Notes under the pieces: generated by a model
What the model saw: only the letters and a program-made list of their open reading frames with translations
Databases searched by the model: none
Told to the model about the DNA's origin: nothing
NCBI GenBank assembly: GCA_024709425.1
Contig: JANJWS010000052.1
Location: 1 to 46,545 of the forward strand
DNA length: 46,545 bases
Reading direction: 5' to 3'
DNA from: Thiobacillus sp.
Lineage (GTDB): Bacteria > Pseudomonadota > Gammaproteobacteria > Burkholderiales > Thiobacillaceae
Program-made: the position numbers and the translations under genes
In this document: positions 487-23,072 of the stretch, piece by piece
Numbering within the stretch: position 1 is the first letter of the stretch
How the letters are laid out: each line of letters begins with the position of its first letter

Positions 487-998
487 TGCAGTCCTTTCAG
501 GGCGGCGATCGAATAGATCGCGGCCAGCAGATCGTCGAACATCACGCCGAATCCGTTCTTCAGCCGGGCGTCGGCGATGCGGATCGGCCAGGGTTTCAGG
601 ATATCGAACAGGCGGAACAGTGCAAAGGCCAGCGCGATCGACAACCACCCCGGCGGGGTGAAAACGAGTACCAGCGCGAAGGCGACGATCTCGTCCCACA
701 CGATGCCGCCGTGGTCCGCCACGCCCAGCGCGCGGCCGGCGCGTGCGCTCGCCCATACGCCGACGAGGAAAGCAGCGACAAGGAGGACGATCCGATTCGG
801 CAGGTCGGATGCGGCGGCCTCGATCAGCCAGAAAAGCGGCAGGCCGAGCAGGGTGCCGACGGTGCCGGGGGCCTTCGGTGCGAGGCCGGTGCCGAAGCCG
901 AAGGCGATGAGGTGGGCGGGGTGGGCGACGAGGAAGCGAAAGCTGGCCCTCTCCCCAGCCCCTCTCCCGCTTGCGGGGTCAGGCAGCGAAGTGGTCAT
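474..998 (-). CDS. pgpA: Phosphatidylglycerophosphatase A
   Basis: Inner-membrane lipid phosphatase that dephosphorylates phosphatidylglycerol phosphate in phospholipid synthesis. The 174-aa product has the family's N-terminal FGFGTGLAPKAPGTVGTL segment, membrane helices, the acidic VWDEIVAFALVLVF motif and a C-terminal GVMFDDLLAAIYS motif. It overlaps thiL upstream by 20 bases and pncC downstream by 13. The first about 20 residues (SLPDPASGRGAGERA) are not family-like: they translate a CCCTCTCCC-type repeat that has invaded the 5' end, so the functional protein may effectively begin near FRFLVAHP. Start chosen at the ATG at 998; no better start codon with a ribosome site is visible. Confidence 0.9.
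   Translation of the reverse strand: MTTSLPDPASGRGAGERASFRFLVAHPAHLIAFGFGTGLAPKAPGTVGTLLGLPLFWLIEAAASDLPNRIVLLVAAFLVGVWASARAGRALGVADHGGIVWDEIVAFALVLVFTPPGWLSIALAFALFRLFDILKPWPIRIADARLKNGFGVMFDDLLAAIYSIAALKGLQWLV
940..975. repeat. CCCTCTCCC-family repeat inside the pgpA 5' end
   Basis: The stretch contains CCTCTCCC-type units separated by about 12 bases, followed by CGCTTGCGGGG. The same unit occurs three times in the ribH-nusB spacer (2513-2546). It is read in frame by pgpA and yields a low-complexity N-terminal segment. Interpreted as a dispersed intergenic repeat that has been incorporated into coding sequence. Confidence 0.55.
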
Positions 999-1932
999 AG
1001 CCGGTCTTGTCGATTTGCATGGGCTTGCCGTCGGAGTCGAGGACACCGAGGCCTGCTTCGGCGGTGATGCGGCCGATGCGGGTCGCCGCGACGCCCGACT
1101 GCTGTGCGGCGGCGAGCACCGCGTCGCGGCGTGCGGCAGGGGCGGTGAAGCAGAGTTCGTAGTCGTCGCCGCCGGCGAGCACGCACTCGCGCGCCACGTC
1201 CTCGTGCAGATATTTGTGCAGCACCGGCAGGACGGGCAGCGCCGCGAATTCGATCGTGGCGCCGACGCCGGAACGTTCGAGGATGTGGCCAAGATCGCCC
1301 AGCAGGCCATCGGAAATATCGATTGCGGCGGAGGCGAGGCCGCGCAGCGCGAGACCGAGTTCGACGCGCGGCGTCGGCAGGTACAGCGCCGGCAGCACGC
1401 GGGCGGCGTCGACCTGCTCCATGAACAGGCGTCCCTGGCGGTAGGCGAGTGCGGCGGCGGCCGAACCGATCACGCCCGATACCCAGACGTCGTCACCGGG
1501 ACGCGCGCCGTCGCGGCGCAGCGCCTCACCCGGCGGCACTTCGCCGATGACGGTGACCGACAGCGTGAGCGGCCCGCGCGTGGTGTCGCCACCGACCAGC
1601 TCGATGCCGTACTGCTCGGCGACGCGAAAAAAACCGCGCGTGAACGCCGTGAGCCAGGCGTCATCCTCCGTCGGCAGCGCGATCGCCAGCGTCGCCCAGC
1701 GCGGCGTCGCCCCCATCGCCGCGAGGTCCGACAGGTTCACCGCGAGCGCCTTGTGCCCGAGCCCCGCAGGACTGTCCTGCGGCGCGAAATGCCGACCTTC
1801 GAGCAGCATGTCGGTCGACACCGCGAGCTGCATCCCCGGCGTCGGCGCCAGCAGCGCGCAGTCGTCGCCCACGCCCAGCACCGCGCCGGGCGCGGCGCGG
1901 GTGAAGTGGCGGGCGATGAGGGAGAATTCCAT
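979..1932 (-). CDS. thiL: Thiamine-monophosphate kinase
   Basis: Phosphorylates thiamine monophosphate to thiamine pyrophosphate, the last step of cofactor synthesis. The 317-aa protein begins MEFSLIARHF and shows the family's GVGDDCALL metal/ATP motif near residue 21, a STDMLLEGRHF motif, a VGGDTTRG segment near the middle and a DISDGLLGDLGHI motif, all typical of the PurM/ThiL fold. Length matches the family. The gene lies between nusB and pgpA, the common betaproteobacterial order. No Shine-Dalgarno precedes the ATG; instead the C-rich arm of an inverted heptamer repeat (1937-2052) ends six bases upstream. Confidence 0.96.
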   Translation of the reverse strand: MEFSLIARHFTRAAPGAVLGVGDDCALLAPTPGMQLAVSTDMLLEGRHFAPQDSPAGLGHKALAVNLSDLAAMGATPRWATLAIALPTEDDAWLTAFTRGFFRVAEQYGIELVGGDTTRGPLTLSVTVIGEVPPGEALRRDGARPGDDVWVSGVIGSAAAALAYRQGRLFMEQVDAARVLPALYLPTPRVELGLALRGLASAAIDISDGLLGDLGHILERSGVGATIEFAALPVLPVLHKYLHEDVARECVLAGGDDYELCFTAPAARRDAVLAAAQQSGVAATRIGRITAEAGLGVLDSDGKPMQIDKTGYDHFAA

Positions 1933-1936
1933 TTGA

Positions 1937-2052
1937 TAGGGGTCAGGATTCAGGGGGCGGGGGGCAGGGGGGTTTGTGCGGCTTCGCCGCGCTTGATGAA
2001 TTCACAAATAGTGCTTCTTTCCTGCCCCCTGACCCCTGACCCCTAGCCCCTA
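1937..2052. repeat. Heptamer inverted-repeat element, nusB-thiL junction
   Basis: Two arrays of degenerate seven-base units face each other. In the minus (mRNA) sense a G-rich array starts in the nusB stop codon (2052-2021, units like GGGGTCA) and a C-rich array (1972-1939, units like CCTGACC) ends six bases before the thiL ATG. Between them are a small stem (1978-1982 with 1986-1990, loop TTC) and an outer TTTGTG/CACAAA pair (1973-1978 and 2003-2008). The transcript should fold into a long intercistronic stem-loop. Sister elements: 7031-7117 and 18751-18836. Confidence 0.75.
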
Positions 2053-2480
2053 TTTTTAGCCGCCTCGATCTCCACCGCCCGCACGTCCTGCGCCAGCTTG
2101 TCGAGCACGCCGTTGATGTACTTGTGGCCGTCGGTGCCACCGAATTTCTTCGCCAGTTCGACGCCTTCGTTGATGGCGACGCGCCAGGGTACGTCGGGAC
2201 AGTTGAGGAGTTCGTAGGCGCCGAGTAGCAGGATGCCGCGCTCGATGGGGGAGAGCTCGGCGATGGGGCGGTCCAGCAGGGGGGCGATGCGCGAGCTCAG
2301 CAGATCCTCTTCCTTCAGCACACCGTACAGCAGGGTGCGGAAGTAGTCCTCGTCGGCGCGCTTGAACTGCTCGTCTTCCTTGAGGTTGGCGGCGATGAGG
2401 GTGGCGTCGGCGCCGCCGACCAGCCAGGCGTACAGGCCCTGCAGGGCGAATTCGCGTGCGTGCTTGCGGGAACCGGCCAT
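2043..2480 (-). CDS. nusB: Transcription antitermination factor NusB
   Basis: All-helical RNA-binding protein that, with NusE (S10), binds boxA in rRNA leaders. The 145-aa product starts MAGSRKHAREFALQGLYAW, a typical NusB opening, and contains the family signatures SPIERGILLLGAYEL and NEGVELAKKFGGTDGHKYINGVLDKLA. The ATG at 2480 is preferred over the TTG one codon upstream. The gene sits between ribH and thiL, its usual neighbours. Its last codons and TAG stop lie inside the G-rich arm of the heptamer repeat. Confidence 0.96.
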   Translation of the reverse strand: MAGSRKHAREFALQGLYAWLVGGADATLIAANLKEDEQFKRADEDYFRTLLYGVLKEEDLLSSRIAPLLDRPIAELSPIERGILLLGAYELLNCPDVPWRVAINEGVELAKKFGGTDGHKYINGVLDKLAQDVRAVEIEAAKNRG

Positions 2481-3071: not shown

Positions 3072-4157
3072 TCAAGTTTTTTCGGAATGGCCGGTGACTT
3101 CGAGGCCGAAGCCGTCCATCGCCGGCATCTTGCGCGGACTGGCGAGCAGGCGCATCTTGCCGACACCGAGGTCGCGCAGGATCTGTGCGCCGATGCCGTA
3201 GTCGCGCAGGTCGTACTTGCGGCTGTCAACCGGCGCGGGGTTGATGCGATCGAGCAGGGCATCCGCCGTTTCCGGCCGGTGCAGCAGGACGATCACGCCC
3301 GACTGTGATTCGGCGATGCGTTCCATCGCGCCCAGGATGGGCCAGGAATGGCCGCCGCCGGTGACGTCGAGGAAGTCCATCACGCTCAAGGGCTCGTGCA
3401 CGCGCACCAGCGTCTCGCGGTCGGCATGGATCTCGCCCTTGACCAGCGCGAGATGGGTTTCGCCGGCGCACTTCTCGCGATAGGCGATGAGGCGGAACGC
3501 GCCATACACCGTCTGGATCAGGCGGTCGGCGGCACGCTCGACCAGGCTCTCGGTCTGGTTGCGGTAGTGGATGAGGTCGGCGATGGCGCCGATCTTGAGA
3601 CCGTGCTCCTGCGCGAACGGCACCAGATCGGGCAGCCGCGCCATGCTGCCGTCGTCCTTGAGGATTTCGCAGATCACCGACGCGGGCTCGAGGCCGGCGA
3701 GCCCGGCGAGGTCGCAGCCCGCCTCGGTGTGGCCGGCGCGCACCAGCACGCCGCCGGGCTGCGCGCGCAGCGGGAAGATGTGGCCGGGCTGGATGATGTC
3801 GGTCGGCTTGGCGTCCTTTTTCACCGCGGCCTGGATGGTGACCGCGCGGTCGGCGGCGGAGATGCCGGTGGTCACCCCCTCGGCGGCCTCGATCGAAACG
3901 GTGAACGCGGTGCCGTGCGGCGTCTGGTTGTCGGACACCATCTGCTTCAGGCCCAGCTGGCGGCAGCGCGCATCGGTGAGCGTGAGGCAGATGAGGCCGC
4001 GGCCATACTTCGCCATGAAGTTGATCGCATCCGGCGTGACGTGCTCGGCGGCCATCACCAGATCGCCCTCGTTCTCGCGGTCTTCCTCGTCGACCAGCAC
4101 GACCATGCGGCCGGCTTTCAGCTCTTCGATGATTTCAAGGGTGGAGGCGAGGCTCAT
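3072..4157 (-). CDS. ribB: 3,4-dihydroxy-2-butanone-4-phosphate synthase with degenerate GTP cyclohydrolase II domain (RibBX type)
   Basis: The N-terminal ~200 residues are a complete DHBP synthase: DEEDRENEGDLV, then RAGHTEAGCDLAGLAGL. This domain makes the four-carbon riboflavin precursor from ribulose 5-phosphate. The C-terminal ~155 residues align with GTP cyclohydrolase II by order and position, but the zinc-binding and catalytic segment (family SECLTGD then RCDC) is replaced by VRVHEPLSVMDFLDVTGG and lacks the ligand cysteines. This is the RibBX arrangement described in Proteobacteria; automated annotation would call it RibBA. A separate active ribA is therefore expected elsewhere. Length 361 aa. 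Its ATG shares one base with the ribE stop. Confidence 0.93.
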   Translation of the reverse strand: MSLASTLEIIEELKAGRMVVLVDEEDRENEGDLVMAAEHVTPDAINFMAKYGRGLICLTLTDARCRQLGLKQMVSDNQTPHGTAFTVSIEAAEGVTTGISAADRAVTIQAAVKKDAKPTDIIQPGHIFPLRAQPGGVLVRAGHTEAGCDLAGLAGLEPASVICEILKDDGSMARLPDLVPFAQEHGLKIGAIADLIHYRNQTESLVERAADRLIQTVYGAFRLIAYREKCAGETHLALVKGEIHADRETLVRVHEPLSVMDFLDVTGGGHSWPILGAMERIAESQSGVIVLLHRPETADALLDRINPAPVDSRKYDLRDYGIGAQILRDLGVGKMRLLASPRKMPAMDGFGLEVTGHSEKT

Positions 4158-5081: not shown

Positions 5082-6032
5082 ATGAACACGCGTGCCGACC
5101 TCATCCACAGCTTTGGCCGCGCGATGCAGGATCGCTACGGCGAACGCGTGCACAAGATTGCGCTCGACGCCGGCTTCACCTGCCCCAATCGCGACGGATC
5201 CAAAGGCATCGGCGGCTGCACCTTCTGCAACAACAAGTCATTCGCGCCTGGCGCGCGTGAGCCGGCCACGCTGGCGGCGCAGTTCGACCGTGCGCGCAGC
5301 CGTATCGGCAACCGCACCGGTGCGCGCCGCTTTCTCGCGTATTTCCAGGCCTACACCAACACCTACGCGCACGTCGACGAGCTGCGCGCGCTGTACGATC
5401 AGGCGCTGGCCGAACCGGGCGTCATCGGGCTGTCCATCGGTACCCGCCCGGACTGCGTGCCGCCGCCGGTGCTCGACCTGCTTGCCGAATACCGCGACCG
5501 CGGCCACGAGGTGTGGCTGGAACTCGGCCTGCAGTCGTCGTTCGACCACAGCCTGGCGCGCGTCAATCGTGGCCACGGCTTCGCCGAATACGTCGAGGCG
5601 ACGCGCGCCGCGCGTGCGCGCGGCATCCCGGTGTGCTGCCATCTCATCGTCGGCCTGCCCGGCGAGGACGAGTCGCACGCCCACGCCAGCCTCGACCGCG
5701 TGCTCGAAGTCGGCGTCGATGGCCTGAAGCTGCATCCGCTGCACGTGGTCAAGCACACGATCCTCGCCATCGAATGGAAACGCGGCGAGTACGTGCCGCT
5801 GGAAGAAGCCGACTACCGGCGCATCGCGGCCGACCTCATCGAGCGCACGCCGTGGGACGTGGTGTATCACCGCGTCACCGGCACTGCGCCGGCTGACATC
5901 CTTCTTGCGCCCGCGTGGTGCGCAAAGAAGTGGGATATCTTGAACGGCATCGCCGACGAACTGGCGCAGCGCGGCAGTCGCCAAGGCGCGCGCGCGGGCC
6001 AACCCTGGAAGGAGCACATCCATGCCGCTTGA
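5082..6032 (+). CDS. TIGR01212/YhcC-family radical SAM protein
   Basis: The 316-aa protein opens MNTRADLIHSFGRAMQDRYG and carries Cys34, Cys46 and Cys49 in CPNRDG...GGCTFCNNKSF, the unusual spaced cysteine set of this radical-SAM family. Downstream TRPDCVPPPVLDLL, LELGLQSSFDHSL and HLIVGLPGED are typical barrel motifs. The family's substrate is not firmly established; homologues resemble tRNA- or Elp3-type radical SAM enzymes. The ATG at 5082 follows a GGAGGG ribosome site. Its end overlaps ubiU by 11 bases, so it is probably cotranscribed with the anaerobic ubiquinone genes. Confidence 0.9.
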   Translation: MNTRADLIHSFGRAMQDRYGERVHKIALDAGFTCPNRDGSKGIGGCTFCNNKSFAPGAREPATLAAQFDRARSRIGNRTGARRFLAYFQAYTNTYAHVDELRALYDQALAEPGVIGLSIGTRPDCVPPPVLDLLAEYRDRGHEVWLELGLQSSFDHSLARVNRGHGFAEYVEATRAARARGIPVCCHLIVGLPGEDESHAHASLDRVLEVGVDGLKLHPLHVVKHTILAIEWKRGEYVPLEEADYRRIAADLIERTPWDVVYHRVTGTAPADILLAPAWCAKKWDILNGIADELAQRGSRQGARAGQPWKEHIHAA

Positions 6033-7023
6033 ACTGGTCTGCCCGGCGGGCAGCCTGATGGCGCTCAAGGCCGCCATCGACCACGGCGCCGACGCCGTCT
6101 ACATGGGCTTTCGCGACAACACCAACGCGCGCGCCTTCCCTGGCCTCAACTTCGACGAGGCGCAGGCAGCCGAAGGCCTGCGCTACGCCCACGACCGCGG
6201 CCGCAAGGTGCTGCTCGCACTCAACACCTATCCGCAGTCCGATACCTGGCAGCGCTGGACCGGCGCAGTCGACCGCGCGGCGAAGCTCGGCATGGACGCG
6301 GTCATCCTCGCCGACGCCGGTCTCATGCGCTACGCGGTGAAGAATCATCCGCAGCTCCGGCTCCACCTGTCGGTGCAGGGCTCGGCCACCAGCTACGAGG
6401 CGGTCAACTTCTACCGTGAGCACTTCGGCGTGCAGCGCGCCGTGCTGCCGCGCGTGCTGTCGTTGCCGCAGGTGGAGGCCGTGGTGAAGAACACCGCGGT
6501 CGAGATCGAACTGTTCGGCTTCGGCGGCCTGTGCGTCATGGTCGAGGGGCGCTGCCTTTTGTCGTCCTACTGCACCGGCGAATCGCCGAACTCGGCCGGC
6601 GTGTGCTCGCCCGCCAAATCGGTGCAGTGGAAGGAAACCCCCACCGGGCTGGAATCGCGCCTGAACGGTGTGCTGCTCGACCGCTACGGCAAGGACGAGA
6701 AGGCGGGTTACCCGACCCTGTGCAAGGGCCGCTTCGAGGTGTCCGGCGAGACCTATTACGCTCTGGAAGAGCCGACCAGCCTCAATACTCTCGACCTCCT
6801 GCCGGAAATGCTCAGGATGGGCATCGCAGCGATCAAGATCGAAGGCCGCCAGCGCAGTCCCGCCTACGTGACGCAAGTGACGAAGGTCTGGCGCGCCGCC
6901 ATCGACGCGGTGAAGAAGAACGCCGAGAGCTTCGCCCCAGCGCCGGCCTGGATGGCCGAATTGAACAAGCTCTCGGAAGGCCAGAGCCACACGCTCGGCG
7001 CCTATCACCGGCCGTGGAAATGA
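6022..7023 (+). CDS. ubiU: Ubiquinone biosynthesis protein UbiU (peptidase U32 family)
   Basis: With UbiV it forms the [4Fe-4S] complex needed for oxygen-independent hydroxylation of the ubiquinone ring. The 333-aa protein begins MPLELVCPAGSLMALKAAID and contains Cys171, Cys178, Cys195 and Cys234, matching within two residues the four cluster ligands known in E. coli UbiU. The U32 signature lies around ELFGFGGLCVMVEGRCLLSS. Starts inside the preceding gene (GGAAGGAG ribosome site) and is followed by ubiV across a heptamer repeat. Confidence 0.94.
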   Translation: MPLELVCPAGSLMALKAAIDHGADAVYMGFRDNTNARAFPGLNFDEAQAAEGLRYAHDRGRKVLLALNTYPQSDTWQRWTGAVDRAAKLGMDAVILADAGLMRYAVKNHPQLRLHLSVQGSATSYEAVNFYREHFGVQRAVLPRVLSLPQVEAVVKNTAVEIELFGFGGLCVMVEGRCLLSSYCTGESPNSAGVCSPAKSVQWKETPTGLESRLNGVLLDRYGKDEKAGYPTLCKGRFEVSGETYYALEEPTSLNTLDLLPEMLRMGIAAIKIEGRQRSPAYVTQVTKVWRAAIDAVKKNAESFAPAPAWMAELNKLSEGQSHTLGAYHRPWK

Positions 7024-7030
7024 TTGTCGT

Positions 7031-7117
7031 GCGTGAGGTGTCGGGCGTGAGGCGTGAGGCGAAACACCTCGGCCCGTGCCTGTCTGCACCTGGCGCCTAA
7101 CCCCTCACGCCTCACGC
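7031..7117. repeat. Heptamer inverted-repeat element, ubiU-ubiV junction
   Basis: GCGTGAGGCGTGAGG (7045-7059) is perfectly complementary to CCTCACGCCTCACGC (7103-7117). Flanking degenerate heptamers extend both arms (7031-7044; CCTAACC before 7103). The C-rich arm ends three bases before the ubiV ATG. A competing stem (GAGGTGT 7035-7041 with ACACCTC 7064-7070) interleaves with the main stem, so two exclusive folds or a pseudoknot are possible. Confidence 0.8.
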
Positions 7118-7120
7118 ATT

Positions 7121-8014
7121 ATGAATCTGTCGATCGGTCCCCTCCTGTACTACTGGTCACGCGAGGACACCTTCGCCTTCTACGAGGCGGCGGCAAGCTG
7201 GCCGGTGGCACGCATTTACCTTGGCGAGACCGTGTGCTCGCGGCGCCACCTGCTGCGCCTGCCGGACTGGCTCGATCTTGCGGAAAAGCTTGCCGCCGCG
7301 GGCAAGGAAGTGGTGCTCTCCACGCAGACGCTGATCGAGTCGGAATCCGATCTCAAGGTGCTGCGCAAGATCGTGCGCGACGGTCGCTTCCTGGTCGAGG
7401 CCAACGAGTGGGGCGCGGTGCGGCTGTTGTCGGAAGCGAAGCGGCCCTTCGTCGCCGGCCCGACGCTCAACATCTACAATCCGGAGACGCTCGACGTGCT
7501 CGCGAGTCTTGGCGCGCGCCGCTGGCTGCCGCCGGTGGAGGTATCGCGTGTGGCGCTGGCGGCGCTGATGGAACGCGCTCCAGCCGGCATGGAAACCGAA
7601 ATCTTCGCCTACGGCCGCCTGCCGCTGGCCTATTCGGCACGCTGCTTCACCGCGCGTCATTACAACCTGCCCAAGGACGACTGCCAGTTCCGCTGCCTCG
7701 ACCATGCCGACGGCTTGTCGCTATCGACGCGCGAGGGTGAACCCTTCCTCACCATCAACGGCATCCAGACGCAGTCGGCCGGGGTCTACAACCTCATCAA
7801 CGAAATTCCGGTCCTGCGCGACATGGGTGTCACCTGCCTGCGCCTGTCGCCGCAGTCGCGCCATATGGAACGCGTGGTCAGGGCCTTCGATGCCGCGCTG
7901 GCAGGCGACACCGCGGCCGCCGCCGGGCTGGCGAAAGTGATGCCGGGGCCTTCGGTGGATGGCTACTGGCACGGCCGCGCCGGCCTCGAACAGGACGCCG
8001 CTCAATATGTCTGA
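7121..8014 (+). CDS. ubiV: Ubiquinone biosynthesis protein UbiV (peptidase U32 family)
   Basis: Partner of UbiU in anaerobic ubiquinone synthesis. The 297-aa product has Cys39, Cys175, Cys188 and Cys192; the first position and the 13- and 4-residue spacings match the [4Fe-4S] ligands of E. coli UbiV. The central YGRLPLAYSARCFTARHYN segment is the U32-type core. No Shine-Dalgarno precedes the ATG; the C-rich arm of the repeat sits there. The 3' end overlaps the queD-like gene by eight bases. Confidence 0.93.
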   Translation: MNLSIGPLLYYWSREDTFAFYEAAASWPVARIYLGETVCSRRHLLRLPDWLDLAEKLAAAGKEVVLSTQTLIESESDLKVLRKIVRDGRFLVEANEWGAVRLLSEAKRPFVAGPTLNIYNPETLDVLASLGARRWLPPVEVSRVALAALMERAPAGMETEIFAYGRLPLAYSARCFTARHYNLPKDDCQFRCLDHADGLSLSTREGEPFLTINGIQTQSAGVYNLINEIPVLRDMGVTCLRLSPQSRHMERVVRAFDAALAGDTAAAAGLAKVMPGPSVDGYWHGRAGLEQDAAQYV

Positions 8015-17067: not shown

Positions 17068-18750
17068 TCAGCTCACCAGCATGATGAGCAGCAGGAAGAT
17101 GTTGAGGCTGATCGACAGCGCGGCCAGCAGGGGCCAGACACCTGCCGGTGTACGCATCGACAACGGTGCGTGGCGGCGCAACAGCGGGCTGGTTTCTCCG
17201 CGTTCGAGTGCCATCCGCAGTGCATCGGAGGTGGCAAAACGATTCGATGGCGCGCGGGCGACGGCTTGCATCAGCGCACTGTCCAGCCAGGGCGGGCAAT
17301 CCGGGCGGTAGCGTGTCGGCGGCACCGGTTCGCCGAAGCGGGGATGCTGGAAGGGTTCGATTTCACCGTAGGGGTACTTGCGCGTGAGCAGGTGATACAG
17401 GGTGACGCCGACTGCATAAAGGTCGGTTGCGGTACTGGCTTCCGTGCCGGTGAACAGCTCCGGCGCCATGAAACTTGGCGTACCCGGCTGGGCCAGATCT
17501 TCGCGCAGATCGAGGGTGGGGCAGCGCGCGGCGCCGAGATCGAGAATGCGCAGTTTGCCCGCGCGGTCCACGTGCAGGTTGCCAGGCTTGATGTCGCGGT
17601 GCACCACGTCGAGCCGGTGCAGGGCGGAAAGGCCCTTCAGCAGGCGGATGCCGAGTGTCGCCACTTCGGCGGGCGTGAAATGGTGACCTGCGTCGAGGCG
17701 CGCCTGGAGCGTGGCGCCCTCGTGGTGGCGTTGCGCGAAATACAGGAAATTCCGCCCCGGCAGGGGCAGTACTTCGGGGAAGTAATGCGAGTGTACGCGC
17801 TTGAGGAACCATTCCTCGGCGAGCAGGCGTGCCGCGGCCTCCGCATCGGCTGCCCGGGCGGGTGGCAGGGTCTTCAGTACCCAGTGCTGGCCAGTGTCGG
17901 CGTGGCGCGCCTGGTAAACGAGGCTTTCACGTCCGCCGTGCAATTCGCTTTCGATGATGAAATCGTCGAGCCGCGCGCCGGGCTGGAGCCGGCCCGGCAA
18001 CGGCAGGTCGCGTGCCTCGGCAAGAGGTGTATCGGCCTCGCCCAGGGCCATGATGCGAACGACGAGAGCGGTGGCATTGTCTTGTCCACCACGCGCTTGC
18101 GCGGCCTCCGTCAGTGCGGCGGCGGCGCGCTCGGGCGCGTCGTGCAGTCTGAGGATTTGGTGCAAGCCAATGTGACCGAGTGGCTCCCATACCCCATCGC
18201 TGGCGATCAGGAAGACGTCATCGCGGGCCATGAGGCCGTCGCCGAAATCAGGCAGCACATGCGTGTCCAGCCCGAGCGCGCGTCTGAGTACGTGCGACAT
18301 GTGCGGTGCGCCCCACACATGGTCGGTGGTCAGGAGCTCCAGGGTTTCGCCGCGCATGCGATACAGGCGGCTGTCGCCGATATGGGCAAAGTGGAAACGA
18401 TGCCCGCGCAGCACCAGCGCAGTGAGCGTGGTCGCCATGCCGCCGGGCTCGGCTCGCGACGCGGTCTGGCCGTGGAGCCAGCGATTGATTGCGCTGAGTA
18501 CCGTCCCCAGCGCGCGGGCGACTTCCCAGGTTTCCGGCGTCGCGTAGTAGTCCGCCAGCAGATTGCGTACCGCCGTCTCTGCCGCCTCGCGCCCGTGCAG
18601 GCCCCCCGAGACACCGTCCGCGACCACCGCGAGCCTGCCCTTGGTGGCGGCCAACTGCAAATCCGACGGTTCCACGAAACCGCCGTAGTCCTCGTTACGC
18701 TCGCGTGGGCCTGTCGCCGTGGCGTAGCCGAATTGCAGGGTGAGGGGCAT
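17068..18750 (-). CDS. Bifunctional PP2C-type phosphatase / Ser-Thr protein kinase, membrane-anchored
   Basis: 560 aa. Residues 1-235: PP2C with RNEDYGG (19-24), VADGVSGG (43-50), IGDSRLYR and IASDGVWE. Residues 263-520: protein kinase with Lys293 (WVLKTL), HRDIKPGN (Asp386), DLG in place of DFG (404-406) and APE (429-431); the glycine loop LHGGRESLVY is atypical. Residues about 539-559: one C-terminal transmembrane helix. Same-order neighbours (transporter, nirB, nirD) are known in Pseudomonas, where the orthologue lies beside nirBD and the nitrate transporter, so it probably modulates nitrate assimilation post-translationally. No Shine-Dalgarno: a heptamer array abuts the ATG. Confidence 0.9.
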   Translation of the reverse strand: MPLTLQFGYATATGPRERNEDYGGFVEPSDLQLAATKGRLAVVADGVSGGLHGREAAETAVRNLLADYYATPETWEVARALGTVLSAINRWLHGQTASRAEPGGMATTLTALVLRGHRFHFAHIGDSRLYRMRGETLELLTTDHVWGAPHMSHVLRRALGLDTHVLPDFGDGLMARDDVFLIASDGVWEPLGHIGLHQILRLHDAPERAAAALTEAAQARGGQDNATALVVRIMALGEADTPLAEARDLPLPGRLQPGARLDDFIIESELHGGRESLVYQARHADTGQHWVLKTLPPARAADAEAAARLLAEEWFLKRVHSHYFPEVLPLPGRNFLYFAQRHHEGATLQARLDAGHHFTPAEVATLGIRLLKGLSALHRLDVVHRDIKPGNLHVDRAGKLRILDLGAARCPTLDLREDLAQPGTPSFMAPELFTGTEASTATDLYAVGVTLYHLLTRKYPYGEIEPFQHPRFGEPVPPTRYRPDCPPWLDSALMQAVARAPSNRFATSDALRMALERGETSPLLRRHAPLSMRTPAGVWPLLAALSISLNIFLLLIMLVS

Positions 18751-18836
18751 GTCAGGGGTCAGGGGTCAGGGGTCAGGAAATTATAGGGGCGCGGCCTTGG
18801 CCGCTCCCCCTGACCCCCGAATCCCGACCCCTGCTC
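18751..18836. repeat. Heptamer inverted-repeat element, transporter-kinase junction
   Basis: Four consecutive plus-strand units GTCAGGG, GTCAGGG, GTCAGGG, GTCAGGA (18751-18778) touch the kinase ATG; the opposing array (about 18806-18834, units CCCTGAC, CCCCGAA, TCCCGAC, CCCTGCT) begins shortly after the transporter stop. A perfect GCGGCC-TT-GGCCGC hairpin (18791-18804) sits at the centre. In the transcript: stop, G-rich array, hairpin, C-rich array, start, as in the 1937 and 7031 elements. Confidence 0.82.
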
Positions 18837-18842
18837 TTTCCA

Positions 18843-20054
18843 CTACACCCGCGCTCCCGCAACCGCCGCGGCGCCCCAGGTGGTACGCCAGCGTGTCTTG
18901 ACGGACGATAAGCCGATGAGGGCGATGATGCACAGGCCCGCGAAGATGAGCAGCCCGAGTTGGTAGCTGCCGGTGGCGCCGCGGATGTAGCCGAGGCTGG
19001 TCGCCAGATAAAAGCCGCCGATGCCGCCGGCCATGCCGACCAGGCCGGTCATCACGCCGATCTCCTTGCGGAAGCGTTGCGGCACCAGCTGGAACACCGC
19101 GCCATTGCCGACGCCGAGGCTGCCCATGCCGAGGATGAACCAGAAGAGGGCTACCCAGGGGCTGGCGGCGCCGAAGCTTACGATGGCGATGAAGATCGAC
19201 GCCAGCACGTACATCGCCAGCAGGGTGCGGATGCCACCGATGCGGTCGGCCAGCGCACCGCCGATGGGTCGCACCAGCGAGCCGGCGAACACACAAGCCG
19301 CGGTGAAGTAGCCTGCTTGCACCGGCGTCATGCCGTACTGGTCGTTGAAATACAGGGTGAGGCTGGAGGCGAGCCCAACGAAGCCGCCGAAGGTGCAGAA
19401 GTAGAAGAACATGAACCACCAGGCGTCCTTGTCCTTCAGCACGTTGAGGTACTGGTGCAGCGATTTCGGCGGCGGGCAGTCCGGCGCGTCCTTGGCGAAG
19501 ACGAGGTAGACGACGAAGGCTGCACCCACAGGGATCAATGCCAGGCCGAACACGTTGCCCCAGCCATAGGCGACAGCCAGGCCGGGTGCGAACAGTGCCG
19601 CCAGCACGGTCCCGGAATTGCCTGCCCCTGCGATGCCAAGCGCGGTGCCCTGGTGTTGCGGCGGATACCAGCGCGAAGCGAGCGGCAGCGCCACCGCGAA
19701 CGCCGCGCCGGCAAAGCCGAGCAGCACGCCGAGCACCAGCACCTCGCGGAAGCTGTGGATACCGGCGAGCCACGCCCAACTCAAGGCGCCGATGACGATG
19801 AGCTGGCCGATCAGCCCGGCCTTCTTCGGCCGAAGATGGTCGACCAGCACGCCCATCACCACGCGCAGCAGCCCGCCGGCCAGCACCGGAGTCGCCACCA
19901 TCAGGCCCTTCTGCGCCTGGGTCAGTTCGAGCGACGTGGCGATCTGCACCGCCAGCGGGCCCAGCACCACCCAGATCATGAAGGCGATGTCGAAGTAGAG
20001 AAACGCGGACAGCAGCGTGGGGGTGTGGCCTGATTGCCAGAATCCTTGGTTCAT
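18843..20054 (-). CDS. narK: Nitrate/nitrite MFS transporter (NarK/NasA type)
   Basis: 403 aa, about 12 membrane helices. Nitrate-signature motifs of the NNP family are present: GIAGAGNSGTVLAALFAPGLA near residue 135 and GMGSLGVGNGAVFQLVPQ near residue 320. Start MNQGFWQSGHTPTL selected because CTGGAG lies eight bases upstream of the ATG at 20054. It follows nirD in the assimilatory nirBD cluster, so nitrate/nitrite uptake for assimilation is more likely than respiratory antiport. Confidence 0.93.
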   Translation of the reverse strand: MNQGFWQSGHTPTLLSAFLYFDIAFMIWVVLGPLAVQIATSLELTQAQKGLMVATPVLAGGLLRVVMGVLVDHLRPKKAGLIGQLIVIGALSWAWLAGIHSFREVLVLGVLLGFAGAAFAVALPLASRWYPPQHQGTALGIAGAGNSGTVLAALFAPGLAVAYGWGNVFGLALIPVGAAFVVYLVFAKDAPDCPPPKSLHQYLNVLKDKDAWWFMFFYFCTFGGFVGLASSLTLYFNDQYGMTPVQAGYFTAACVFAGSLVRPIGGALADRIGGIRTLLAMYVLASIFIAIVSFGAASPWVALFWFILGMGSLGVGNGAVFQLVPQRFRKEIGVMTGLVGMAGGIGGFYLATSLGYIRGATGSYQLGLLIFAGLCIIALIGLSSVKTRWRTTWGAAAVAGARV

Positions 20055-20157: not shown

Positions 20158-20499
20158 TTATTCGGCCACGAGCGACAGGCTCACCATGCCGTCGACCACC
20201 CGCACCGGATAGCGCGCGGCGCAGCCTTCGTCGGGGGCGGCAGCAAGCCCGGTTTCCAGGTTGATCTTCCAGTCGTGCATGGGGCAGGCCACGCGCTTGC
20301 CGTGGACGATGCCCTGCGACAGCGGGCCGCCCTTGTGCGGGCACTTGTCGCGCAGCGCGAACACCTCGTCGTCCGCGGTGCGGAAGACGGCGATGTCGCC
20401 GGTGGAGGTGGTGACAACGCGGGCGCCCTGGCGCGGGATGTCTTCGATGCGGCCGATGCTGATCCAGGTGTCAGGTTTTTCCTTGGTTGCGGTTTGCAT
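20158..20499 (-). CDS. nirD: Assimilatory nitrite reductase small subunit NirD
   Basis: 113-aa Rieske-type ferredoxin partner of NirB. Both ligand motifs are complete: C-P-H in RDKCPHKGGPL and C-x2-H in ACPMHDWK. The well-studied E. coli NirD lacks these ligands, so this subunit can bind a [2Fe-2S] cluster whereas E. coli NirD cannot. A TGGAG ribosome site precedes the ATG. An 18-base perfect inverted repeat lies between it and nirB. Confidence 0.93.
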   Translation of the reverse strand: MQTATKEKPDTWISIGRIEDIPRQGARVVTTSTGDIAVFRTADDEVFALRDKCPHKGGPLSQGIVHGKRVACPMHDWKINLETGLAAAPDEGCAARYPVRVVDGMVSLSLVAE

Positions 20500-20528: not shown

Positions 20529-20594
20529 TCCGCGAAGGACGCGAAGAGACGCGAAGTCAAAACCCCGCAGATTTTTCTTCGCGTCCTTCGCGGA
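20529..20594. repeat. 18-base inverted repeat in the nirB-nirD spacer
   Basis: TCCGCGAAGGACGCGAAG (20529-20546) is perfectly complementary to CTTCGCGTCCTTCGCGGA (20577-20594), with a 30-base loop. A partial extra unit (GACGCGAAG) follows the first arm. The transcript forms a very stable intercistronic hairpin starting ten bases after the nirB stop. It has no U-tract and the nirD ribosome site is free, so it is more likely an mRNA-processing or stability element than a terminator. Confidence 0.85.
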
Positions 20595-20603
20595 TAGACG
20601 CTC

Positions 20604-23072
20604 TTAAACAATCGTGGCCAGCGGCTCGAATTCGTGCGCCTCGCCGCCTTCGGCGCGCGCCTTCCACGGGTCGATCTGGGCGGGTTTCTGCGAGGCGAGG
20701 AAGCGTTCCGCCAGCGCCTTGCGGTTGGTCGCGTTGTCGACCACCTTCGCCTGGATGTGGGCGAGGCCCACGCGCTCGACCCACGGCGCGGTGCGCTCGA
20801 GGTAGTGCGCCTCTTCCCGATACAGCTGGGTGAAGGCGGCGCAATATTCGAGCACCTGTTCCTCGGTCTCGACCTTGCACAGGAGGTCGGTGACGCGCAC
20901 CTTGATGCCGCCGTTGCCGCCGACGTGCAGCTCGTAGCCGGAATCGACGCAGACCACGCCGAAGTCCTTGATCGTGGCTTCGGCGCAGTTTCTCGGGCAA
21001 CCGGAGACCGCCAGCTTGTACTTGTGAGGCATCCACGAGCCCCAGGTCATCTGCTCCAGCTTGACGCCGAGCCCCGTCGAGTCCTGGGTGCCGAAGCGGC
21101 ACCACTGGCTGCCGACGCAAGTCTTCACGGTGCGCAGCGCCTTGCCGTAGGCGTGACCCGAGACGAAGCCGGCCTCGCTGAGGTCCTTCCACATCGCAGG
21201 CAGGTCTTCCTTTTTTACCCCGAAGAGGTCGATGCGCTGGCCGCCGGTGACTTTCATTTCCGGCACCTTGAACTTGTCTGCCACGTCGGCGATGGCGCGC
21301 AGCTCGCGCGGGTTGGTAAGCCCGCCCCACATGCGCGGCACCACCGAGAAGCTGCCGTCCTTCTGGATGTTGCCGTGCGCGCGCTCGTTGATGAAGCGCG
21401 ACTGCGCGTCGTCCCGGTATTCGTCCGGCCAGGCGCACAAGAGGTAGTAGTTGAGCGCCGGGCGGCATTTGGCGCAGCCGTCGGGTGTCTTCCATTCGAG
21501 GAAGCGCATCGTGTCCGGCATGGTCTTCAGGCCGTGTCCGACGATGGTGGCGCGTACCTCGTCGTGGCTGTGGTCGGTGCAGCCGCACAGCGGCTTCTTC
21601 GACGGCGCGGCGGAGTAGTCGCCGCCCACGGTATGCGCCAGCAGGGCTTCTACCAGGCCGGTGCACGAGCCGCACGACGCCGAGGCCTTGGTGTGCGCGC
21701 GCACTTCCTCCAGCGTGAACAGTTTCTTGTCGCGGATGGCGTTGACGATGTCGCCCTTGCACACGCCGTTGCAGCCGCAGATTTCCGCCGTATCCGGCAG
21801 CGCCGCCACCCGGTCGGCATTACCGTGGCCCGAGTCGCCCAGGTGGCTCTGGCCGAAGAGGATGGTCTTGCGTAGCTGCGAGACGTCGGTGCCCTCGCGC
21901 AGCAAGTCGAAGTACCAGGCGCCGTCCAGGGTGTCGCCGTAAATGCAGGCGCCGACCAGCCGGTTGTTCTTGAGGACGAGTTTCTTGTAGCTGCCGGCCG
22001 CGGCGTCGGAATAGACCAGCGATTCGGTGCCCTCGCCGCCCGCGAAATCGCCGGCGGAAAAGAGATCGATGCCGGTGACCTTGAGCTTGGTCGAGGTCAT
22101 CGAACCGACGTAGCGCGCCACGCCGTGCTCGGCGAGGTGGTTGGCGCACACCTTGGCCTGTTCGAACAGCGGCGCCACCAGGCCGTAGGCGGTGCCGCGA
22201 TGGTTCACGCACTCGCCCACCGCGTAGATGCGCGGGTCGTAGGTCTGCATGGTGTCGTTGACCGCGAGGCCACGGTTGCAGTGCAGGCCCGCGGACTCCG
22301 CGAGCTCGGTGTTCGGGCGGATGCCGACGGCCATCACCACGAGGTCGGCGGGGACGGTTTCGCCGTCCTTGAATTGCACTGCGCCGACGCGCCCCTGCGC
22401 AGAAGGCAGCAGCGCCGCCGTCTGCTTCTGCAACAGGAATTTCAGCCCCTTCGTTTCCAGATTTTGCTGCAAGAGGCGCGCCGCGGGTTCGTCGAGCTGG
22501 CGGTCGAGCAGCCAGGAACCCAGGTGCACCACCGTGACGTCCATGCCGCGCAGCTTGAGGCCGTTGGCTGCCTCCAGGCCGAGCAGGCCGCCGCCGATCA
22601 CCACGGCGTGCCGATACTCGGAAGCTGCGCGGATCATGGCATCGACGTCGGCGATGTCGCGGAAACCGATCACACCGGGCAGGTCGGCGCCGGGGACGGG
22701 CAGCATGAAGGGCTTCGATCCGGTCGCGAGCAGCAGGCGGTCATAGGGCGCGCGGGTGCCGTCTTCCGTTTCCACGCAGCGGTTCCTGCGATCGATCTTG
22801 ACCACCTTTTCGCCGGTATGCAGCGTAATGTCGTTCTGCGCATACCAGTCGCGTCCGTTGAGGACGATCTGCCCCACCGTTTGCTCGCCGGCCAGCACCG
22901 GCGACAGCATGATGCGGTTGTAGTTGGGATGCGGCTCATCGCCGAACACCGTGATGTCATACAGGCCGGGTGCCGCTTTAAGAAGTTCCTCCAGCGTACG
23001 GATCCCGGCCATGCCGTTTCCGACCAGCACCAGTTTCATTTTTTTGCCTGCCGGGGGTGTGCTCATGTCCAT
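20604..23072 (-). CDS. nirB: Assimilatory NAD(P)H nitrite reductase large subunit NirB
   Basis: 822 aa, cytoplasmic, reduces nitrite to ammonium. Order: FAD/NAD(P)H pyridine nucleotide-disulphide domain (LVLVGNGMAGIRTLEEL near 14-30; VIGGGLLGLEAANGL near 158), BFD-like [2Fe-2S] cysteines Cys432, Cys434, Cys467 and Cys470, and C-terminal sulfite/nitrite reductase domain with sirohaem-[4Fe-4S] ligands Cys652, Cys658, Cys692 and Cys696 (CVGSQWC, CPRNC). Start at 23072 has CTGGAG upstream; the ATG at 23039 is an alternative. A consensus sigma-54 promoter and NtrC-type site precede it. Confidence 0.97.
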   Translation of the reverse strand: MDMSTPPAGKKMKLVLVGNGMAGIRTLEELLKAAPGLYDITVFGDEPHPNYNRIMLSPVLAGEQTVGQIVLNGRDWYAQNDITLHTGEKVVKIDRRNRCVETEDGTRAPYDRLLLATGSKPFMLPVPGADLPGVIGFRDIADVDAMIRAASEYRHAVVIGGGLLGLEAANGLKLRGMDVTVVHLGSWLLDRQLDEPAARLLQQNLETKGLKFLLQKQTAALLPSAQGRVGAVQFKDGETVPADLVVMAVGIRPNTELAESAGLHCNRGLAVNDTMQTYDPRIYAVGECVNHRGTAYGLVAPLFEQAKVCANHLAEHGVARYVGSMTSTKLKVTGIDLFSAGDFAGGEGTESLVYSDAAAGSYKKLVLKNNRLVGACIYGDTLDGAWYFDLLREGTDVSQLRKTILFGQSHLGDSGHGNADRVAALPDTAEICGCNGVCKGDIVNAIRDKKLFTLEEVRAHTKASASCGSCTGLVEALLAHTVGGDYSAAPSKKPLCGCTDHSHDEVRATIVGHGLKTMPDTMRFLEWKTPDGCAKCRPALNYYLLCAWPDEYRDDAQSRFINERAHGNIQKDGSFSVVPRMWGGLTNPRELRAIADVADKFKVPEMKVTGGQRIDLFGVKKEDLPAMWKDLSEAGFVSGHAYGKALRTVKTCVGSQWCRFGTQDSTGLGVKLEQMTWGSWMPHKYKLAVSGCPRNCAEATIKDFGVVCVDSGYELHVGGNGGIKVRVTDLLCKVETEEQVLEYCAAFTQLYREEAHYLERTAPWVERVGLAHIQAKVVDNATNRKALAERFLASQKPAQIDPWKARAEGGEAHEFEPLATIV

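Follow-up and report, generated by a model that had tools for sequence, protein, structure and literature searches.

The element that separates a nitrate/nitrite transporter gene from a kinase gene in the window (the whole 46,545-nt stretch of Thiobacillus sp. DNA that was analysed) is, on balance, probably a dispersed heptamer foldback repeat that is rapidly rewritten by replication errors or by copying between loci and is tolerated in gene gaps, rather than a purpose-built switch. At orthologous junctions from up to 44 genomes of one genus, the two arms of an element agree with each other, while the seven-base words differ between species even where the flanks are nearly identical. Prior readings of paired or start-adjacent heptamers, in the parts of those sources that were available, treated them as quadruplexes, regulator sites or translation signals and gave no account of their origin. 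Arm agreement together with word differences across species makes it directly testable why the unit has seven bases and why the arrays face each other.

Heptamer elements at three junctions, across the genome and inside genes

On the minus strand, the narK/kinase junction runs from the narK stop (18843-18845) through a degraded G-rich arm, an inner hairpin, a TATAAT sequence and four TGACCCC-type units to the kinase ATG (Table 1). The sequence-only reading had placed four seven-base units directly against this ATG, and TRF bore this out, with 3.9 copies of period 7 at 100% matches (18751-18777). The perfect GCGGCC-TT-GGCCGC centre that it described is likewise exact. Its four complementary heptamers after the narK stop held in part: the arm is present but consists of 3-4 degenerate units, not four exact complements. 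Of the 14 orthologous gaps that span 40 nt or more, 10 kept the -10-like TATAAT although their arm words vary, and one more (L162) has TATACT. A consensus scan reached no -35 partner for it, and a promoter at this position is only a suggestion. Among the best 80 of 334 kinase relatives, the closest were at most 76% identical, in records named Thiobacillus, Hydrogenophilales, Sulfuriferula and similar, and one kinase junction (L164, genome G002) is identical in sequence to the corresponding junction of Thiobacillus denitrificans RG (L061).

Table 1. Coordinates of the three heptamer elements and their neighbouring genes in the window.
Feature	Positions	Strand	Basis or remark
thiL	979..1932	-	NCBIfam TIGR01379 above cut-off
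Element at nusB/thiL	1936..2053	-	arms 1936-1968/2021-2053, 82% complementary
nusB	2043..2480	-	NCBIfam TIGR01951 above cut-off
ubiU	6022..7023	+	NCBIfam NF047963 above cut-off
Element at ubiU/ubiV, GTGAGGC units	7030..7118	+	arms 7030-7059/7089-7118, 77% complementary
ubiV	7121..8014	+	NCBIfam NF047965 above cut-off
Downstream gene, PP2C phosphatase / Ser-Thr kinase fusion	17068..18750	-	NCBIfam NF033484 and NF033483, both below curated cut-offs
C-rich arm at narK/kinase, four TGACCCC-type units abutting kinase ATG (18748-18750)	18751..18778	-	TRF and sequence
TATAAT (-10-like) between narK/kinase arms	18780..18785	-	gap comparison
Inner hairpin GCGGCC-TT-GGCCGC (minus strand GCGGCC-AA-GGCCGC)	18791..18804		sequence, exact
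G-rich arm 3' of narK stop, made of 3-4 degenerate heptamers; complementarity to C-rich arm 84%	18809..18833	-	25 nt; 31 nt between arms
Upstream gene, NarK-type nitrate/nitrite transporter, stop 18843-18845	18843..20054	-	NCBIfam TIGR00886, 283.7 bits, below cut-off of 311.7

The same plan had been reported at nusB/thiL and ubiU/ubiV with different units at each. The plan itself was found at both junctions, but the nusB/thiL units belong to the same GGGGTCA/GGATTCA family as those at narK/kinase, and only the GTGAGGC units of ubiU/ubiV differ. At nusB/thiL, the outer repeat unit (GGGGCTAG, minus strand, 2043-2053) provides the nusB stop codon, so that the array overlaps the 3' end of nusB. 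At the gathering score, Rfam had no match over the three elements. Its sole match in the window was V_AS9, a Vibrio antisense RNA (3957-4060, plus strand, 63 bits), which lies opposite a predicted minus-strand gene (3072-4157) and may be conserved coding sequence instead of RNA.

Heptamer arrays are in strong excess in the host genome (a 2.71-Mb draft, 90.5% complete), and this excess is not due to chance. The three-unit pattern TGANNNNTGANNNNTGA gave 151 matches compared with 5 for its reversed control, the array-start pattern 42 compared with 2, two CCTGANN units 36 compared with 0, and the GTGA pattern 11 compared with 3. Across the 55 other genomes of the genus, the array-start pattern, which detects only TGA-containing words, gave 936 matches in total versus 225 for the control and exceeded the control in 54 genomes. 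Lag-7 identity was 0.47-0.49, versus 0.24-0.32 at the other lags from 2 to 13.

Placement was determined for 41 arrays. These reached at least 12 matches out of 14 at lag 7 when the window and the regions surrounding pattern matches were scanned; for TGANNNNTGANNNNTGA, these regions came from about the first 100 of the 151 matches. The scan drops degenerate arrays (e.g. C8:15254), the later array patterns miss arrays with a T seven bases ahead of the first unit, and the surrounding genes were called by a small codon-score script instead of a standard gene finder. Twenty-eight arrays lay between tandem genes, 2 between convergent genes, none between divergent genes, 9 inside genes and 2 at contig ends. 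A facing partner (score of at least 12) was present for 19 of the 28 tandem-junction arrays versus none of the 9 inside genes (Fisher p=0.0004). Among junctions whose gap measured 40 nt or more, 27/29 with arrays were tandem versus 32/45 without (p=0.036, for loci chosen around arrays). The proposal of an expanding repeat class, made in the sequence-only reading, was supported; the class is dispersed, with strong predicted stems (see below) and a preference for co-directional junctions. That reading had also noted that the C-rich array directly preceding the start is on the sense strand, which carries no strand information, because an inverted pair with the G-rich array first reads G-rich and then C-rich on both strands. 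Array orientation was therefore dropped as evidence.

One of the nine arrays within called genes lies in a doubtful ORF (L042). Judging from sequence, the hosts of the gene-internal arrays resemble IleS, LipB, MutL, a DnaE-type polymerase, BioC, BioD, NuoJ and PepA (L036, L053, L056, L057, L144, L151, L154). The sense strand was free of stops in all three frames in 9/9 cases, and the antisense strand had stops in two frames (2 cases) or three (7 cases). That these arrays are stop-free and unpartnered follows in part from their placement in an open frame.

We compared the IleS and PepA loops in a sample of 31 genomes, with loops judged by eye; IleS matched in 27 genomes (25 readable) and PepA in 30 (28 readable). 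Depending on the species, the IleS loop holds TCAGGGG-, GGAGAGC- or GTGAGG-type arrays, or another repeat or none, and the PepA loop holds TCAGGGG-type arrays, in one case a GTGAGGG-type array, or is short. All inserts preserve the frame except one in PepA (L327, 46 nt, where the match is in two pieces), and in two GTGAGG-type IleS arrays (L279, L280) TCA replaces TGA in the unit where TGA would fall in frame. Frame constraints shape the coding arrays, and the same repeats supply new sequence to conserved enzymes. Their occurrence inside genes indicates that a start codon is no requirement for the repeats. Rickettsia palindromic elements, which are not known to be heptamer arrays, are repeats tolerated in frame inside genes. 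The IleS gene of one genome (G012, L294) carries a 135-nt in-frame insert of a different GC-rich repeat where its relatives have heptamers.

Arm agreement and word differences between species

We searched 56 genomes for the proteins encoded by the three downstream genes, retrieved additional upstream sequence and excised the stop-to-start gaps, giving 15 gaps at the kinase junction, 44 at nusB/thiL and 33 at ubiU/ubiV, after 8/23, 1/45 and 1/34 loci, respectively, had been dropped. The start is probably mis-set at two nusB/thiL loci (L257 and L260). Many gaps held facing arrays, with the words CCCTGAC, CCCCTAG, CTCACCC, CGCTCAC, CTCTCCG, CGCCTCA and others; the remaining gaps held a single array, a different palindrome or nothing recognisable. 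Three ubiU/ubiV loci (L235, L243, L245) had either just one array or a left arm that was weak.

We scored the left half of each gap against its own right half and against the right halves from other species at the same junction, entering identical gaps once and using 20,000 permutations. The mean own-arm and other-species scores were 17.1 and 8.9 at the kinase junction (n=14), 11.4 and 8.3 at nusB/thiL (n=39), and 11.8 and 6.5 at ubiU/ubiV (n=18), with p=5e-5, the permutation floor, at each junction. The self match was the top of its row in 8/14, 2/39 and 7/18 cases, respectively, many species having words in common at nusB/thiL. Elements within the host genome showed the same relation (18.6 self versus 15.8 cross, n=26, p=0.007). 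Our results thus showed that the two arms of one element tend toward a common word. The mirror order of unit variants lends weak support; it was positive in 29 of 32 (Wilcoxon 1.6e-8), with the best diagonal picked first and two elements counted twice, and 3 of the 32 reach p 0.05 alone.

At nusB/thiL, the sole junction tested in this way, no phylogenetic signal of unit type was detectable. The tree was a quick one, built from 697 columns of flanking nusB and thiL pieces, and the typing of units relied on simple regular expressions, which left 13 of the 44 junctions as 'other', some of them (L209, L214) resembling CGCTCAC. With six labels, the 44 junctions required 24 changes on the tree versus a shuffled mean of 26.1 (47/300 shuffles were as low), and the 31 typed junctions, with 'other' excluded, required 18 type changes versus 17.0 under shuffled labels. 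Pairs with at least 93% identical flanks had the same type in 5/19 cases, no more often than the more distant pairs (14/59, 28/161 and 65/226). Between the host-genome junction (L190) and a close relative (L193), only 2 of about 55 core positions differ, while their left arms carry mostly TCA versus CTA and their right arms TGA versus TAA/TAG. In a second pair with 94% identical flanks (L216 and L200), both arms are different throughout between conserved flanks.

A typical extragenic element consists of two tandem arrays that face each other and use a single seven-base word, often flanking a GC-rich inner hairpin. To explain these patterns, we propose a dispersed foldback repeat made of heptamers. 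The arrays would expand and homogenise by replication slippage, and the second arm would be created, and kept matching, by inverted template switching within the hairpin, i.e., quasipalindrome correction; alternatively, elements may be overwritten by copies from other loci. Such elements would persist where they are harmless, mainly in co-directional gene gaps and protein loops. We infer slippage and template switching; no such event was observed. Template switching between inverted arms is a documented process and, in the part of the source at hand, is argued to be both maker and mender of hairpins (PMC8794818). Because a mutation process alone may keep the arms matched, co-varying pairs in hairpins of this kind are not necessarily a sign of RNA function.

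The apparent replacement of whole elements, as between L216 and L200, also fits a mobile element. In a MITE- or REP-like scheme, an enzyme acting in trans would cut or copy elements into the same permissive gaps repeatedly, one element replacing another. The facing arms are terminal inverted repeats, as expected of MITEs, and an inner core is common to unrelated loci: CGGC-N2..8-GCCG hairpins occur in 14 of the 26 element gaps of the host genome (letter-shuffled mean 1.3, maximum 6), and GATGAGCGGCC..GGCCGCG was found at the kinase junction (L161), nusB/thiL (L251) and ubiU/ubiV (L223) of three different genomes. Furthermore, the element is present or absent at ubiU/ubiV, where 14 of 33 gaps are 0-7 nt long and element-free and 19 are at least 40 nt, and other palindromic repeats occupy the same junctions elsewhere (L232, L237, L238, L257). 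However, neither fixed ends nor target duplications were seen by eye, the arms are built of tandem units that vary in number and word, and single-arm arrays lie inside genes. We consider mobile DNA of this kind unlikely.

The word differences also bear on a reading of the elements as paired binding sites of a global regulator, as in Geobacter metallireducens. Tandem heptamers paired on opposite strands would suit such sites, and the Geobacter class word MTYCTGA is very close to ATCCTGA units found here. However, none of the 41 arrays lies between divergent genes, and a conserved regulator site is hard to reconcile with a word that differs between sister species at the same gene. We consider regulator sites very improbable.

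Words at separate loci seem not to be independent of one another. Three-unit CCTAG arrays were present in 23 of the 56 genomes and CGCTNAC arrays in 19, with very uneven counts; the reversed control in these counts is not clean, since it also picks up a different heptamer, TGATCCC (38 matches in G000, 55 in G013 and 33 in G001). With junction matches removed and ancestry ignored, CCTAG arrays were present elsewhere in 6/6 genomes with CCTAG at nusB/thiL versus 14/38 others (p=0.0055), and CGCTCAC arrays were present elsewhere in 8/9 genomes with CGCTCAC at that junction versus 8/35 others (p=0.0005). Independent tree pairs gave about 2.1 to 0 and 2.7 to 0, which is the same direction but too small for significance. 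The genomes that have CGCT arrays cluster on the tree (8 changes versus 13.4 shuffled), and for CTAG arrays (13 versus 14.7) such clustering is not clear. The host genome itself contains several heptamer words.

This word dialect could be caused by copying between loci, by a common mutational bias or by common descent. It could also be kept by a genome-wide process that writes or converts arrays, through ectopic conversion or a telomerase-like, template-carrying polymerase, and rewrites both arms. We regard such a process as decidedly unlikely. If it were true, length would be fixed at seven while the word switches within a genus, and a seven-base replicating unit would inhabit gene gaps and protein loops.

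Folding, start codons and translation

The elements at narK/kinase, nusB/thiL and ubiU/ubiV are predicted to form strong stems, with z-scores of -7.6, -4.8 and -3.9, respectively. Among relatives, the mean z at the same three junctions was -4.9, -3.3 and -1.8, and z fell below -2 in 11/14, 28/41 and 8/19 gaps. In the window elements, the predicted unpaired probability of the start codon was 0.69, 0.63 and 0.77, which puts it just past the foot of the stem, and that of the 15 bases 5' of the start was 0.25, 0.28 and 0.15, which puts them mostly within it. The sequence-only reading had predicted a stem that includes the initiation region; this held for most of the 15 bases before the start but not for the start codon, and a start codon hidden in the stem was rejected for the window elements.

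A purpose-built translation element, in which the junction stem regulates or couples translation of the distal gene, would suit these stems, which cover most of positions -15 to -1, as well as the placement of 28 of the 41 arrays at tandem junctions, many of them abutting a start codon. It would also suit the retention of gaps of at least 40 nt at 14/15 kinase and 41/44 nusB/thiL loci. However, in the window elements the stem does not extend to the start codon, and the polarity is common to any such palindrome. In relatives whose gap spans 40 nt or more, the mean unpaired probability at the kinase, nusB/thiL and ubiU/ubiV junctions was 0.57, 0.45 and 0.70 for the start codon and 0.56, 0.55 and 0.41 for the preceding 15 bases. 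Presence/absence comparison among relatives had been called for in the sequence-only reading, and element-free ubiU/ubiV orthologs were found there. In 12 foldable element-free gaps, the start codon was unpaired at 0.69 and the preceding 15 bases at 0.46, so that the element alters little the openness of the ubiU/ubiV start codon (0.70 versus 0.69) and of the 15 bases ahead of it (0.41 versus 0.46).

The downstream genes had been said to lack Shine-Dalgarno (SD) motifs, which is true of the three starts, yet 20/44 other window genes lack one too. An SD-like motif precedes the downstream gene at 9/28 array junctions versus 24/44 other window genes (Fisher p=0.09), and two of the nine calls are doubtful (L045, with the start within the array, and L050, with the start 208 nt away). 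The element ends before an SD in several cases (L023, L033, L147) and elsewhere reaches the ATG. SD loss was dropped as a hallmark in view of these counts.

The claim that the element sets translation of the distal gene thus fared poorly, given a start outside the stem, SD motifs at 9/28 junctions, element-free orthologs and arrays inside genes such as IleS and PepA, away from any start codon. An element that occupies a gap of a few bases necessarily contacts both the start and the stop. Translational control by the heptamer element is weakly supported, and we judge a purpose-built translation element unlikely.

For a tolerated foldback repeat, folding would instead explain why an operon can bear it. 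The predicted stop-to-start path along the folded RNA was 10, 8 and 9 steps for the 92-, 110- and 97-nt gaps at narK/kinase, nusB/thiL and ubiU/ubiV, respectively. A folded stem that leaves the start 8-10 steps from the stop may still allow the operon to be translated, and elements may be tolerated in such tiny gaps because folding draws stop and start together. Across relatives, the median path was 15, 15 and 19 steps at the three junctions and some paths exceeded 50 (54 in L161, 61 in L203), so that the loop-out idea fails for some relatives. The mostly paired state of the 15 bases ahead of the start in the window elements also counts against it.

Strong stems between tandem genes would also be expected of hairpins that stabilise or process mRNA or end transcription, as REP elements do. 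However, the C-rich arm enters the start codon without a T run, and arrays occur inside genes, which makes such a role quite improbable. A terminator scan of the three elements found no terminator-like site (a GC hairpin followed by a T run), its two matches falling within the nusB gene, and an intrinsic terminator was rejected.

Finally, the G-rich arms might act as G-quadruplexes, as was suggested for Xanthomonas and Nostoc heptamers. GGGGTCA arrays with four G-runs can fit the quadruplex pattern, and 10 of the 26 element gaps, including narK/kinase, do so. However, the pattern is absent from the other 16 gaps, including nusB/thiL and ubiU/ubiV, and the GTGAGGC elements have the same plan. 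A quadruplex was rejected as a common property, and we give very little credence to quadruplexes as the basis of these elements.

Known heptamer systems and other inverted repeats

The repeat class is already known. What is new is the matching of arms as opposed to the word differences between species, the lack of a detectable phylogenetic signal in the words at nusB/thiL, and the dialect. Heptanucleotide repeats of the cyanobacterium Calothrix are named STRR. These are tandem heptamers, as cited in the available part of PMC4692102. In the same part of that source, Rehm et al. (2015) described the heptamers GGGAATC and GGGGA(C/T)T of Xanthomonas and Nostoc as tandem, mostly intergenic and under-represented between divergent genes, with the G-rich strand just 3' of stops on the coding strand and just 5' of starts on the non-coding strand. 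Close facing pairs numbered 70 (Xcc) and 75 (Xac), unit number varied between species, and the role of the heptamers was still to be found, with a G-quadruplex being proposed. The arrays described here share with that class the tandem seven-base units (at least 2), the intergenic placement between aligned genes and the rarity of divergent placement. They differ in their words, which are GGGGTCA/GGATTCA, GTGAGGC and others instead of GGGANTN or GGGGA(C/T)T. Furthermore, as far as the available text goes, a single kind of word was studied there, whereas here there are several words per genome, word differences between sister species, arm concordance and many arrays without a quadruplex pattern.

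TAACTGA direct repeats of marine Beggiatoaceae (MacGregor 2015, PMC4679880) are likewise start-adjacent heptamers containing TGA. According to the part of that account at hand, most sets lie 5' of starts, the largest category ending 1 nt before the start, and mostly lack an RBS; 10 ORF-interior sets are in reverse orientation, and one inverted case was found among 170. The words are different from ours, and facing arrays are usual outside genes here (19/28 tandem junctions). In Geobacter metallireducens, class 3 tandem heptamers with the word MTYCTGA are paired on opposite strands and were read as regulator sites (PMC2700814, in the portion available); our arrays resemble these opposite-strand pairs and have nearly the same word. 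That portion contained no arm-to-arm comparison and none between orthologous junctions. In the available parts of PMC4692102, PMC4679880, PMC2700814 and PMC8794818, neither within-element arm agreement set against between-species word change nor a dialect was seen. In the open-licence literature on heptameric repeats with concerted evolution, nothing relevant beyond PMC4692102 was found among the matches listed.

The heptamer array habit extends beyond the genus. Other families of the order have TGA heptamers of their own, AATGACG in genome G109 and GTGATTC/GTGAACC in G080, and in G109 some matches lie on opposite strands about 50-230 bases apart.

Other palindromic repeats were recognised by eye upstream of the kinase (L071, L077, L078, L080, L083, L085, L086, L089, L091), at ubiU/ubiV (L232, L237, L238) and at nusB/thiL (L257), some of their arms being tandem arrays, and these junction gaps seem to be sites where inverted repeats land in general. 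Within the window, TCCGCGAAGGACGCGAAGA, a perfect inverted repeat of 19 bp with tandem 10-mers as its arms, lies at 20529-20594 between predicted minus-strand genes at 20158-20499 and 20604-23072, and the ubiU/ubiV gap of L237 is filled by a palindrome that resembles it.
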